A stretch of 64,000 nucleotides of DNA from Alphaproteobacteria bacterium. GTDB lineage: Bacteria > Pseudomonadota > Alphaproteobacteria > UBA9219 > RGZA01. Under the pieces are notes generated by a model. That model did not search any database, was not told the origin of the DNA, and saw only the letters and a program-made list of their open reading frames with translations. The stretch is from NCBI GenBank assembly GCA_021732145.1, contig JAKFVN010000006.1, positions 1 to 64,000 of the forward strand. The letters run 5' to 3'. A program made the translations under genes and the position numbers. Shown here one piece after another: positions 30,581 to 43,393 of the stretch. Each line of letters starts with the position of its first letter. The stretch's first letter is position 1.

Positions 30581-33500
30581 ATGAGCCGGATGCCACTCGA
30601 TAACAACACAACGCTTGAAGACCTCCGCCGCCGGATAACGCAGCTTACGCTGGCCGATGAAGAAAGCTGTGTTCGCGCCCTTTCCCCCTTAAGCCGCCTT
30701 TCCATTCAAGATGAACGCACGGTAAGCGCGCAGGCAAAAGAATGGCTTACCTATTTACGGGATGCTGCGCAAAAAGCCGAGCCGATTGAAAAACTCATCC
30801 ACCGTTTTCGCTTAACGGACAAGGAAGGCGTTGCGTTGATGGCGCTGGCCGAAGCACTGCCACGTGTTCCCGATGATTTAACCGCTGATGCGCTGATTGC
30901 CGATAAATTATCGCAAGGCAATTGGCGCGAATATCTGAATCAATATCCCGATATGATTTCGAAAATGGCCTGGCTTGGCCTTTCGCTGGGTAAAGACGTC
31001 AGTTCATCCAATCCATTAAGTTCGTGGGTTAACAAGATAAGCCAGCACGGTTTACGTGAAGCCGTGCGCATGGGTATGAAGCGTTTGGGTGAGCATTTTG
31101 TATTAGGCACAACAATCGAAAACGCCTTAAAAAATTCACTTGGGCAAAACAGCGGTAAAAAGAAACATGCGTTGGAGCGTTATTCCTTCGACATGCTGGG
31201 CGAAGCAGCCCATACAAGTATTGATGCGGAGCGTTATTTTAACGCCTATAAGCACGCGATTGAAGTGCTGGCAGGTTACCATTCCGCGCATAAAATTGGC
31301 GGCAATGCCGTGCATGGGCCATCCATTTCTGTAAAACTATCCGCGCTGCATCCGCGCTATGAATGGGCGCAGCATGAACGTGTGCTCAACGAAATTACGC
31401 CGCGCTTGATGGATTTGGTGGAGATTGCCGCGCATCATAACATTGGATTGACCATTGATGCGGAAGAAGCCGAGCGGCTTGAGCTGTCATTGGCGATTAT
31501 TGAGCAGGTTTTGGCGAGCCCGCATTTGAAAAACTATTCTGGTTTTGGCGTGGCGGTGCAGGCATACCAGAAACGCGCGCCCGCTGTGCTGGATTGGCTA
31601 TATGAACAGGCGCAATTGCAGGGCGTGAAGATAACAGTGCGTTTAGTAAAGGGCGCATATTGGGACACGGAAATTAAACGCGCACAGGAACGTGGCCTTA
31701 CCAATTATCCCGTTTATACACGAAAAGAAGCGACAGATATTGCGTATCTGGCATGCGCCAAAAAGCTGCTGGGCTGGCGCGATGTGATTTTCCCGCAATT
31801 TGGTACGCATAATTTGCGTACCGTACTTTCCATTCGCGCTATGGCGGGCAGTGAACGCGATTATGAAATTCAACGACTGCACGGCATGGGCGAAGATTTG
31901 CACGCGCGCATGTTGGAAGAAGGCGTTCCAAGTTGTGTCTACGCCCCCGTTGGCCCGCATAAAGAATTGCTGAGCTATCTGGTACGCCGTCTGTTGGAAA
32001 ACAGCGCCAACACATCCTTCGTCAACCAATTGCATCAAGGCACGATGGATGTGGATGCACTGACCGCAGACCCATTACAAAAATGGGAAGATGCAGATGT
32101 GAAACCCCACCCCGCTATCCCCTTGCCGCAGCATATTTTTGGCGCGGAGCGCATGAATTCATCTGGCCTCAACCTGCATGACAGCAGCGTAACGGCCAAA
32201 ACCAGCGCGATGCTGAAGAACGCAAAAACGCAAGTGTGGCAGGCATTCCCAGTCATTGATGGTAAGAAGCAAAAAGACAATCTGGCGCGGGAAATGAATA
32301 GCCCCGCCAACAGCTATCAAAAAATTGGTGAATGCGTTGATGCCATTCCATTGCATGTGAACGCCGCGATGCAAAGTTTGGATGCAGCCTTTCCTGCATG
32401 GTCAGCAAAACCTGTAAGCGAACGATGCATTCCGATTGAACGCCTTGCACATAAACTGGAAGAAAACCGCGACGAGTTGATGGCGCTGCTGTGCTATGAG
32501 GGTGGCAAAACCATTGCCGATGCGATTGGCGAAATCCGTGAAACGGTTGATTACTGCCGTTATTACGCAGCGCGTGCGCGTGAAGTATTTGGAAGCCCAA
32601 CGCATCTGCGCGGCATAAGCGGCGAAAGCAACGAATTACGCATTCATGGGCGCGGCGTGTTTGCATGTATCGCGCCGTGGAACTTCCCACTCGCCATCTT
32701 TGGCGGACAAATCATTGGCGCGTTGCTGGCAGGCAATACGGTTGTTGCAAAGCCGGCTGAGCAAACACCGCTGGTAGCAGCCAAGTTTATTGATTTGATG
32801 CTGGAAAGCGGCGTTCCAGAGAACGTTATCGCCCTCCTCCCCGGTTATTCGGATGTGGGTGCGCAGATTATCAACCACCCATTACTGGCCGGTGTTGCGT
32901 TTACAGGTTCAACGCCCACCGCGCGCGCGATTAACCGCGCGCTGGCAGCTAAAGACGCGCCCATTATTCCGTTCATTGCGGAAACGGGCGGCATCAATGC
33001 GTTGATTGCTGATAGCTCTGCACTGCCGGAACAGATTGTTGATGATGTGATGTTGAGTGCATTCCGCAGCGCGGGGCAGCGTTGCTCCGCCGCGCGGTTA
33101 CTGGTGTTACAAGACAGCATTGCCGATGATGTGATTGCGATGCTGAAAGGCGCATTACTGGAATTGCGCGTCGACGACCCCATGCATTTATGCGCGGATG
33201 TTGGCCCAGTGATTGACCAACACGCCAAAGAAATGCTGGAAGCGCATGAACGCACATTAAAAGGCAGCGCGAAATTGATTGGCAGCGCACGCGCAACGGA
33301 AGCCGTAAATATGGGGCATTTCATCTTGCCGCAAGCGTGGGAAATTCCCACCATCGCATCATTAGACAAAGAAGTGTTTGGGCCCATTCTGCATGTTGTG
33401 CGTTTTAAAACGGGCGAACTGGTTCAGACATTCAACGCCATCAACATGCTGGGCTATGGATTAACCGGCGGCATTCACAGCCGCATTGATACAGTGATTG

Positions 33501-33718
33501 AACTTGCCAAAAAACATCTGCGCGTTGGAAATCTTTACATCAACCGCTCCATCATCGGCGCGGTTGTGGGCAGCCAGCCCTTTGGCGGTGATGCGTTATC
33601 GGGCACAGGGCCAAAAGCTGGCGGGCCCAACTACCTCATGCGCTTTGCAGCCGAACGCGCGATTACGCAAAACCTTGCAGCCGCTGGCGGCGATGTGAAT
33701 TTGCTGAAGCTGGATTAA
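30581..33718 (+). CDS. putA: Bifunctional proline dehydrogenase / delta-1-pyrroline-5-carboxylate dehydrogenase
   Basis: 1045 aa; PRODH region (VRLVKGAYWDTEIKRAQ) plus ALDH region (FACIAPWNFPLAIFGGQI, GQRCSAARLLVLQ). Confidence 0.96.
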   Translation: MSRMPLDNNTTLEDLRRRITQLTLADEESCVRALSPLSRLSIQDERTVSAQAKEWLTYLRDAAQKAEPIEKLIHRFRLTDKEGVALMALAEALPRVPDDLTADALIADKLSQGNWREYLNQYPDMISKMAWLGLSLGKDVSSSNPLSSWVNKISQHGLREAVRMGMKRLGEHFVLGTTIENALKNSLGQNSGKKKHALERYSFDMLGEAAHTSIDAERYFNAYKHAIEVLAGYHSAHKIGGNAVHGPSISVKLSALHPRYEWAQHERVLNEITPRLMDLVEIAAHHNIGLTIDAEEAERLELSLAIIEQVLASPHLKNYSGFGVAVQAYQKRAPAVLDWLYEQAQLQGVKITVRLVKGAYWDTEIKRAQERGLTNYPVYTRKEATDIAYLACAKKLLGWRDVIFPQFGTHNLRTVLSIRAMAGSERDYEIQRLHGMGEDLHARMLEEGVPSCVYAPVGPHKELLSYLVRRLLENSANTSFVNQLHQGTMDVDALTADPLQKWEDADVKPHPAIPLPQHIFGAERMNSSGLNLHDSSVTAKTSAMLKNAKTQVWQAFPVIDGKKQKDNLAREMNSPANSYQKIGECVDAIPLHVNAAMQSLDAAFPAWSAKPVSERCIPIERLAHKLEENRDELMALLCYEGGKTIADAIGEIRETVDYCRYYAARAREVFGSPTHLRGISGESNELRIHGRGVFACIAPWNFPLAIFGGQIIGALLAGNTVVAKPAEQTPLVAAKFIDLMLESGVPENVIALLPGYSDVGAQIINHPLLAGVAFTGSTPTARAINRALAAKDAPIIPFIAETGGINALIADSSALPEQIVDDVMLSAFRSAGQRCSAARLLVLQDSIADDVIAMLKGALLELRVDDPMHLCADVGPVIDQHAKEMLEAHERTLKGSAKLIGSARATEAVNMGHFILPQAWEIPTIASLDKEVFGPILHVVRFKTGELVQTFNAINMLGYGLTGGIHSRIDTVIELAKKHLRVGNLYINRSIIGAVVGSQPFGGDALSGTGPKAGGPNYLMRFAAERAITQNLAAAGGDVNLLKLD

Positions 33719-33723
33719 AAAAC

Positions 33724-33770
33724 TGGCGACCCCGATACGATTTGAACGTACGACCTATTGCTTAGAAGGC
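33724..33770 (-). repeat. 47-bp copy of the tRNA-Arg 3' portion (att-like direct repeat)
   Basis: TGGCGACCCCGATACGATTTGAACGTACGACCTATTGCTTAGAAGGC, identical to 34825-34871. Confidence 0.95.
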
Positions 33771-33987
33771 CCAGTACTTATTAAGTAAATCAAATGGCTT
33801 TCAAACTATTTCACGATATGTTCATGCAAAAATTGTCATTTTAAATCAAAGGGTATTTCTTAAAGTTTGAAACCTCCCCACTGGTAGGCGCTAATACTTA
33901 TGGCGATTCATAGCTATTTAGACCAAATCACCATTTGATATTAATTTATTGTTAGGCTAATTTTAGCATAATCAAGGAGTATGATGC

Positions 33988-34368
33988 ATGGCACGCAAAA
34001 ATCTTCACTGGATAGGCTCTTCAAAGAAAGACTTGAAGAAAGAGAGTGATGACGTGAAAAGACAAGTGGGCTATGCGCTATTACTCGCGCAAGAAGGCGA
34101 TAAGTCAGCGGTAGCATGTCCGTTGACCGGCTTTAAAGGCGCTGGAGTTTTAGAAGTTGTTGTTGACGATGCGGGGGATACTTATCGTGCGGTTTATACA
34201 GTGAAATTTGCTAAAGCGGTTTATGCACTCCACTTCTTTAAAAAGAAGTCCAAGAAAGGCATTAAAACCCCTCAGCCAGATATTGAATTGATTAAACAAA
34301 GACTGAAGGAAGCTGAAAATCACTACACAACTAACTACATCAACAACAAACAGGCGATGGAGGCTTAA
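33988..34368 (+). CDS. RelE/HigB-like toxin (phage Gp49-like family)
   Basis: SSKKDLKKESDDVKRQVGYALLLAQEGDKS...LEVVVDDAGDTYRAVYTVKFAKAVYALHFFKKKSKKGIKTP. Confidence 0.88.
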   Translation: MARKNLHWIGSSKKDLKKESDDVKRQVGYALLLAQEGDKSAVACPLTGFKGAGVLEVVVDDAGDTYRAVYTVKFAKAVYALHFFKKKSKKGIKTPQPDIELIKQRLKEAENHYTTNYINNKQAMEA

Positions 34369-34369
34369 A

Positions 34370-34702
34370 ATGGCTAGAAAAAGAAAAAACACAGTTAGCG
34401 ATGCCGTCACCGATGTATTTGCAGACCTCGGCATTCAATTAACTCAAGAAGATTACATAAAGATTGGTTTAGCCAGAGCTATCAATAATAAGATTGTTGA
34501 TAAAGGGCTAACGCAACAACAGGCTGCCAAACTCATGAAAATTGATCAGCCAAAAGTATCCGCAATACTAAGAGGAAAACTAAAAGATTTCTCAACAGAT
34601 AGATTGATGTCTTTTATTACTAATCTTGGTAGTGATCTTGAGATAAAAATTCATAGACGGCAAAAAGGAATTGGCACTGTTAAAATAAAAGAATGTGCTT
34701 AA
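34370..34702 (+). CDS. XRE-family antitoxin (HigA-like)
   Basis: NKIVDKGLTQQQAAKLMKIDQPKVSAILRGKLKDFSTDRLMSFITNLGSDLEIKI; adjacent to the toxin gene. Confidence 0.88.
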   Translation: MARKRKNTVSDAVTDVFADLGIQLTQEDYIKIGLARAINNKIVDKGLTQQQAAKLMKIDQPKVSAILRGKLKDFSTDRLMSFITNLGSDLEIKIHRRQKGIGTVKIKECA

Positions 34703-34713
34703 TACTTAAGGAA

Positions 34714-34748
34714 AAGGGTATAAGCAATTTCATTGCTTATACCCTTTC
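34714..34748. terminator. Strong stem-loop downstream of the TA pair
   Basis: AAAGGGTATAAGCAA-tttca-TTGCTTATACCCTTT, 15-bp perfect stem flanked by A and T tracts. Confidence 0.8.
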
Positions 34749-34824
34749 TAATTAATCGTCTACTTGTGTCTTTTATAGAAAGTTTGAAGGGTTTTTAAAA
34801 CACCTTCTAACTCATTGAAAAGAA

Positions 34825-34901
34825 TGGCGACCCCGATACGATTTGAACGTACGACCTATTGCTTAGAAGGCAATTGCTCTATCCAGCTGAGCTACGGGGT
34901 C
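34825..34901 (-). tRNA. tRNA-Arg (TCT)
   Basis: GACCCCGTAGCTCAGCTGGATAGAGCAATTGCCTTCTAAGCAATAGGTCGTACGTTCAAATCGTATCGGGGTCGCCA. Confidence 0.95.
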
Positions 34902-43162: not shown

Positions 43163-43312
43163 AGAAATGGTGACCCCGATGGGATTTGAACCTCATGCGG
43201 AGCATGGATAGGTTATGGGTTCAACACCCGCAACCCCAGAAATGGTGACCCCGATGGGATTTGAACCTCATGCGGAGCATGGATAGGTTATGGGTTCAAC
43301 ACCCGCAACCCC
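43163..43312 (-). repeat. Two exact 75-bp tandem units, each containing a copy of the tRNA-Lys 3' end including CCA
   Basis: AGAAATGGTGACCCCGATGGGATTTGAACC... at 43163 and 43238; a third start at 43313 runs into the intact tRNA-Lys. Confidence 0.95.
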
Positions 43313-43317
43313 AGAAA

Positions 43318-43393
43318 TGGTGACCCCGATGGGATTTGAACCCATGACCACTCGATTAAAAGTCGCGTGCTCTACCAGCTGAGCTACAGGGTC
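43318..43393 (-). tRNA. tRNA-Lys (TTT)
   Basis: GACCCTGTAGCTCAGCTGGTAGAGCACGCGACTTTTAATCGAGTGGTCATGGGTTCAAATCCCATCGGGGTCACCA. Confidence 0.95.

Follow-up and report, generated by a model that had tools for sequence, protein, structure and literature searches.

A toxin-antitoxin islet without an integrase gene, inserted exactly at tRNA-Arg(TCT), and two sister islets in the same alphaproteobacterial genome

An islet of 1.1 kb (islet 1), holding two genes only, both of a toxin-antitoxin (TA) pair, separates putA from tRNA-Arg(TCT) in the genome of an alphaproteobacterium (assembly GCA_021732145.1, here G000). It lies within the 64,000-nucleotide stretch of contig JAKFVN010000006.1 that was analysed, referred to below as the window. 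Comparison of the sequence with that of a congener strongly supports the view that islet 1 is foreign DNA, inserted exactly at the tRNA gene by tRNA-site-specific integration. The insertion is precise, the corresponding site of the congener is empty, no integrase gene is present, and two sister islets occupy other tRNA genes of the same genome. We infer that a tyrosine integrase acted, that it did so in trans, and that the islet could still be moved should such an integrase enter the cell again. Islet 1 is probably, but far from certainly, a non-autonomous mini-island integrated by an integrase acting in trans, and its current mobility is putative.

Results

The islet and its target tRNA

The original prediction had described an exact 47-bp repeat inside tRNA-Arg(TCT) and again beside putA, 1101 bp away, with only a toxin, an antitoxin and a terminator hairpin between the copies. 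Exact matching and ARAGORN recovered the repeat, and Pfam matches to PF05973 and PF13744 confirmed the two genes. There are exactly two copies of the 47-mer (Table 1), 1101 bp apart from start to start, where zero 47-mer repeats are expected in shuffled sequence, and no further copy is found elsewhere in the genome. The right copy extends from the anticodon loop of the tRNA to its CCA/3' end, and the left copy starts 5 bp past the putA stop codon. The hairpin downstream of the antitoxin gene, previously described as having a 15-bp stem, is indeed strong and terminator-like, but is built of 18 pairs with one bulge.

Table 1. Features of islet 1 and its flanks (window coordinates) and positions of the two sister islets (contig coordinates)
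Feature	Position	Strand	Basis or remark
putA, bifunctional proline dehydrogenase/aldehyde dehydrogenase, host flank	30581..33718	+	Pfam; 84% identical in G002, there abutting the tRNA
Displaced tRNA-Arg(TCT) 3' fragment, distal att copy, 47 bp	33724..33770	+	Exact match; runs on into the host flank of the intact tRNA at the G002 empty site
Distal non-coding end of islet 1, 32% GC; candidate att arm and toxin promoter region	33771..33987	.	In the 288 other class genomes searched, one weak 38-bp match only
Toxin, Gp49/RelE superfamily (PF05973), 126 aa	33988..34368	+	Pfam 5.9e-22
Antitoxin, HTH_37/XRE type (PF13744), 110 aa	34370..34702	+	Pfam 7.6e-24
tRNA-proximal non-coding end of islet 1, 30% GC	34703..34824	.	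AAAGTTTGAA common to both ends, not significant, P ~0.13
Strong hairpin 3' of the antitoxin gene, probable transcription terminator	~34710..34749	+	-22.2 kcal/mol, z = -6.1
att copy within the intact tRNA, nt 31-77	34825..34871	-	ARAGORN and exact match
Intact tRNA-Arg(TCT), integration target	34825..34901	-	ARAGORN; 77 nt identical to the G002 tRNA
Islet 2, at tRNA-Arg(ACG), 1.6 kb	L102:9934-11643 (G000:C5)		Exact 49-bp copy (nt 29-77), 1585 bp downstream
Islet 3, at tRNA-Ser(CGA), 2.7 kb	L119:29-2860 (G000:C30)		Exact 58-bp copy (nt 33-90), 2685 bp downstream

A precise empty site in a congener

In the congener G002, the end of putA and tRNA-Arg form one uninterrupted stretch, which is precisely the empty site that the original prediction had proposed to look for. 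The flanks of G000 and G002 differ by about 16%, and the 77-nt tRNA-Arg(TCT) is identical in the two. In the alignment, the G002 sequence is tRNA...TCGCCA-GTTTTCTAATCCAGC. This host flank also follows the displaced copy in the window (GTTTTTTAATCCAGC), whereas the window's intact tRNA runs on into islet DNA. The empty site and the matching flank of the displaced copy together argue for tRNA-site-specific integration and rule out tRNA duplication, which was accordingly rejected as the source of the repeat. The claim of tRNA-site-specific recombination without an encoded recombinase therefore stands, and the outcome that would have counted against it, an occupied site in every relative with a repeat better explained by duplication and decay, was not encountered.

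The toxin-antitoxin cargo

The toxin match covers the full PF05973 model and the antitoxin likewise spans its PF13744 model. The toxin family, Gp49, has a RelE-superfamily fold. The antitoxin has relatives of known structure in the HTH proteins 2o38 and 2a6c, and its relation to HigA2 is weak. The two genes are one base apart on the plus strand, toxin first, so that an adjacent full-length toxin and HTH antitoxin share one operon, as in type II systems. The pair is predicted from these features to be a type II toxin-antitoxin module of the Gp49/HTH_37 type. Toxin relatives with an adjacent antitoxin are present in many phyla, and the pair is kept in most of the relatives fetched; such conservation in many unrelated bacteria indicates a genuine TA-type module and not two chance open reading frames. 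HigBA/RelBE-superfamily modules that combine PF05973 with HTH_37 have the same toxin-first operon with both domains at full length. Compared with them, the islet pair itself is ordinary and its setting is unusual.

No comparable setting was found for the cargo. The original prediction had suggested a search for other TA pairs at such a repeat, and of the TA relatives checked for nearby tRNAs none was part of a tRNA-flanked islet. Islet 1 DNA had no match in the phages searched and weak similarity, to the toxin gene only, in the plasmids searched. The viral contigs yielded one relative of the toxin, zero of the antitoxin, and no match to the 31-mer core of the repeat. A search of 289 genomes of the class (288 others) with the non-coding end of the islet returned the islet itself and one weak 38-bp match. 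These searches gave no second occurrence of islet 1, whether elsewhere in this genome or in another one, which counts against a trans-mobilised unit.

Three islets of the same build

The original prediction concerned one islet. That islet is real, but it is one of three of the same build: when the tRNA flanks of the genome were fetched and scanned for partial tRNA copies, two more integrase-less islets were found, at tRNA-Arg(ACG) and tRNA-Ser(CGA). The repeats of all three start around the anticodon loop. Both flanks of islets 1 and 2 run into host genes that are collinear with G002. Islet 3 adjoins the very end of its contig, so that only its inner flank is readable, and it includes an extra degenerate tRNA 3' copy (L119:2620-2688). 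At tRNA-Arg(ACG), G002 has no insert like islet 2, but has a divergent stretch of ~480 bp after the tRNA.

Judged by profile matches, the cargo of each of the three islets is a single module, of TA or predicted defence type. The cargo of islet 2 is a HAD-like protein that matches the PADLOC candidate family PDC-S34 (5.7e-45), together with a 58-aa open reading frame, and that of islet 3 is a full pair that matches PD-Lambda-5 A (1.2e-161) and B (6.8e-120). PD-Lambda-5 came out of a functional selection in E. coli, where it was termed an RM+Abi-like system (PMC9519451). The GC contents of islets 1 to 3, at 36.3, 36.4 and 35.9% as against ~50% for the host, place all three within the bottom 0.5% of host windows. 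The displaced att copies are identical to the intact tRNAs at 154 of 154 bases over the three islets, for which P = 0.045 at 2% divergence. Since the displaced fragments are expected to be unselected, this identity indicates that the insertions are recent.

Repeats of another kind also adjoin tRNA genes in this genome. Upstream of tRNA-Ser(CGA) are six tandem 79-bp repeats (L119:2861-3335), each with the first 17 nt of that tRNA. Two tandem units of ~75 bp in the window (43169-43318) lie beside tRNA-Lys(TTT), and each includes the last 25 bp of that tRNA; they resemble the tyrT repeats of E. coli. Short tRNA 3'-end copies likewise follow tRNA-Gly and tRNA-Tyr (L093) and tRNA-Val (L097).

Recombinases and end motifs

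No recombinase gene lies between the repeats of islet 1, as originally claimed, and the integrases of relatives gave no credible tblastn match there. Proteins from the integrase loci of relatives likewise gave no credible integrase remnant in any of the three islets. The genome, rated 100% complete in a draft of 54 contigs, has two Phage_integrase matches, both nearest to XerC/XerD models and slightly below the NCBI cut-offs for the named equivalogs. Its intact tyrosine recombinases are XerC/XerD-like only. No integrase of tRNA-Arg(TCT) type, for which the original prediction had proposed a search, was found, and a search of the genome for serine recombinases found none.

A search with the integrase middle domain revealed a gutted phage-type integrase of P4 type downstream of tRNA-Leu(CAA) (L117:9126-9833; G000:C7). 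Relative to its homologue in G001 it has lost ~117 residues internally; the C-terminal catalytic part is absent, and the tail of another gene follows. No distal copy of tRNA-Leu(CAA) was seen within the stretch read. This remnant indicates that an integrase-bearing element once resided in the genome and that integrase genes do decay there by deletion.

Islets 2 and 3 each have a short sub-terminal motif that is common to their own two ends. In islet 2 this is a 14-mer, the core of which, TGTGCTATTCAA, is present in two copies at one end and in one copy at the opposite end (shuffle P ~0.003); the paired motif was not found in the viral contigs searched. In islet 3, both ends share the 19-mer TGTCCCAAATTTGTCCCAA, which was matched in 0 of 300 shuffles. 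The islet 3 motif recurs exactly, as TTTGGGACAAATTTGGGACA, in the IMG/VR prophage contig L245, where it lies 72 bp past tRNA-Cys(GCA) and is closely followed by a gene for a tyrosine integrase-like protein. Given this placement between a tRNA and an adjacent integrase gene, an arm-type integrase site is the natural reading of the islet 3 motif. In islet 1, AGTTTGAA occurs three times and AAAGTTTGAA twice, but these arm-like repeats were no better than in shuffles (P ~0.13) and were set aside.

tRNA elements and the putA gap in relatives

Relatives were surveyed over ~10 kb per tRNA in one genome per species. In G001, tRNA-Lys(CTT) holds a 9.2-kb P4-like element (L136:3404-12500; G001:C91) with genes for a P4-type integrase, a primase-like protein and an E1/JAB fusion protein that resembles defence genes. 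In G005, tRNA-Lys(TTT) holds an integrase-bearing element of ~10 kb. Both elements have the same att style as the islets. No integrase element with a tRNA-Arg(TCT) repeat was found in the stretches read, and the tRNA flanks read from G002, G003 and G013 contained no comparable small islets. A region of a different kind was seen in G013 (L224; G013:C11), where 9.4 kb with kdp potassium-transport genes lies between tRNA-Pro(GGG) and a 46-bp copy (95.7%) of the 3' part of that tRNA; its contig has no integrase match.

The gap between putA and tRNA-Arg(TCT) is occupied in other relatives as well, by a HigBA-type TA pair in G001 (L015/L069) and by a SIR2-like gene in G003 (L014/L071), in neither case with a tRNA repeat. 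Judged by its gene content, the gap is a wider, family-level hotspot for small defence genes, and the tRNA repeats in G001 and G003 may have decayed.

Discussion

Islet 1 could have reached its present form in two ways that the original prediction had already raised, as a unit mobilised in trans or as a remnant stabilised by the TA pair. We favour the first. A tyrosine integrase supplied by another element, such as a prophage or a P4-like satellite, would have recombined the 47-bp core of a circular form with the part of tRNA-Arg(TCT) that extends from the anticodon loop to the 3' end. The tRNA would have been restored by the incoming core, with its original 3' end pushed to the putA side. The islet would bring a single self-contained TA module, which may penalise loss of the islet and may act in phage defence, and it could still move if a suitable integrase re-entered the cell. 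Because the insertions are recent and no intact phage-type integrase is left, either an integrase acted in trans or three elements quickly lost their integrases. Integration in trans is favoured by the two extra clean islets at other tRNAs. Against it stand the failure to find a helper integrase specific for tRNA-Arg(TCT), the lack of a significant motif common to the ends of islet 1, and the gutted integrase at tRNA-Leu(CAA).

The main alternative, which we regard as possible rather than probable, is that a larger integrase-bearing satellite, prophage or ICE at tRNA-Arg(TCT) underwent an internal deletion that removed its integrase and most of its genes but spared both att sites and the TA pair. 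CIMEs are defined in this way (PMC5704250), the truncated P4-type integrase at tRNA-Leu(CAA) is found in this very host, full elements of 9-10 kb with an integrase and the same att style exist in relatives, and the TA pair would resist its own deletion. However, each of three islets would need a recent loss of its integrase, as dated by the 154 identical att bases, with retention of both ends and of exactly one complete module; integration in trans is the more economical reading. Recognisable integrase pieces are also missing from the islets, whereas scraps are plain at tRNA-Leu. No larger relative of islet 1 with the same ends was found in the class genomes, phages and plasmids searched.

The other explanations fare much worse. 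The putA-tRNA-Arg gap might acquire small genes of defence or TA type, either by illegitimate insertion or through homologous recombination in its flanks, the repeat being incidental. The occupants of the gap in G001 and G003, which have no tRNA repeats, fit such a process, but it would account neither for an exact tRNA repeat of 47 bp nor for the sister islets at two other tRNAs, and we consider it very improbable. Even less credence is due to the left copy as a decayed tandem tRNA-Arg duplicate, with the TA pair inserted between the copies or arisen beside them by ordinary means: the Lys, Gly, Tyr and Val tRNAs of the genome do have short tandem copies of their 3' ends, but the flank that follows the displaced copy belongs in G002 to a single unbroken tRNA, and the left copy has no 5' half and begins sharply at the anticodon loop, as do the copies at two other tRNAs. 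An assembly artefact, in which a foreign contig was joined at a repeated tRNA segment, is similarly hard to credit, since the draft state of the 54 contigs and the position of islet 3 at a contig end are outweighed by the collinearity of the flanks of islets 1 and 2 with G002 host genes and by the lack of further repeat copies in the genome.

Among known kinds of element, the nearest to the islets is the CIME, which is att-flanked and has lost its integrase. CIMEs, as in streptococci, are bounded by att sites and lack genes for integration or transfer (PMC5704250), and Dehalococcoides has 15 ssrA islands without an integration module (PMC3146451). Islet 1 likewise has no integration or transfer genes and is flanked, as by attL and attR, by a 47-bp exact repeat of the tRNA 3' end, for which there is an empty site. 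CIMEs and ssrA islands, like the islets, can target RNA genes, and they need the recombinases of other elements, as the islets would. They are usually described as decayed parts of tandem ICE/IME arrays or of large islands, whereas the islets are three solitary units of 1-3 kb at three tRNAs, with one module each.

As in Islander-type tRNA islands, a regenerated tRNA and a displaced 3' fragment mark the exact ends of islet 1. The Islander catalogue, the smaller size peak of which is at 13.6 kb, admits an island only if it contains an integrase gene (PMC4383910), which islet 1 does not, so that islets of this build would be filtered out by design. P4-like satellites and prophages with defence cargo (the 9.2-kb element of G001; PMC9122126) share with the islets the anticodon-loop att style and the defence-like cargo, but have integrases and primase-like proteins, neither of which the islets encode. 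Tycheposons are cargo elements bordered by a tRNA that span 4-200 kb and encode a tyrosine recombinase of their own (PMC10872708); islet 1, at 1.1 kb, has no recombinase. MITEs and CALINs, which hitch on transposases and integron integrases respectively, are like the islets short and free of a recombinase, and they depend on one supplied in trans, as the islets would (PMC11389934). They differ in recombinase and site: the islets are found at tRNA genes, and their defence cargo codes for proteins.

The islets are distinct from these known kinds in their extreme reduction, their recurrence at three tRNAs in one genome and their one-module cargo. A literature search, which left most subscription journals outside its reach, found no paper describing such a pattern. 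We tentatively suggest, as a possibility of some weight, a class of cassette-like, integrase-free mini-islands, each composed of a tRNA-targeting attP and a single TA or anti-phage module, that borrow the integrases of prophages or satellites.

If this reading is true, the islets would be to tRNA integrases what MITEs and CALINs are to transposases and integron integrases, and would have escaped notice because an internal integrase is a requirement of island finders. If such units are common, they would provide very small natural substrates for tRNA integrases, with a helper dependence that is directly testable, and would show how a mobile unit can consist of nothing but a TA pair. Part of the scattered single defence systems in genomes would then gain a concrete route of movement, one that current island finders discard by design.
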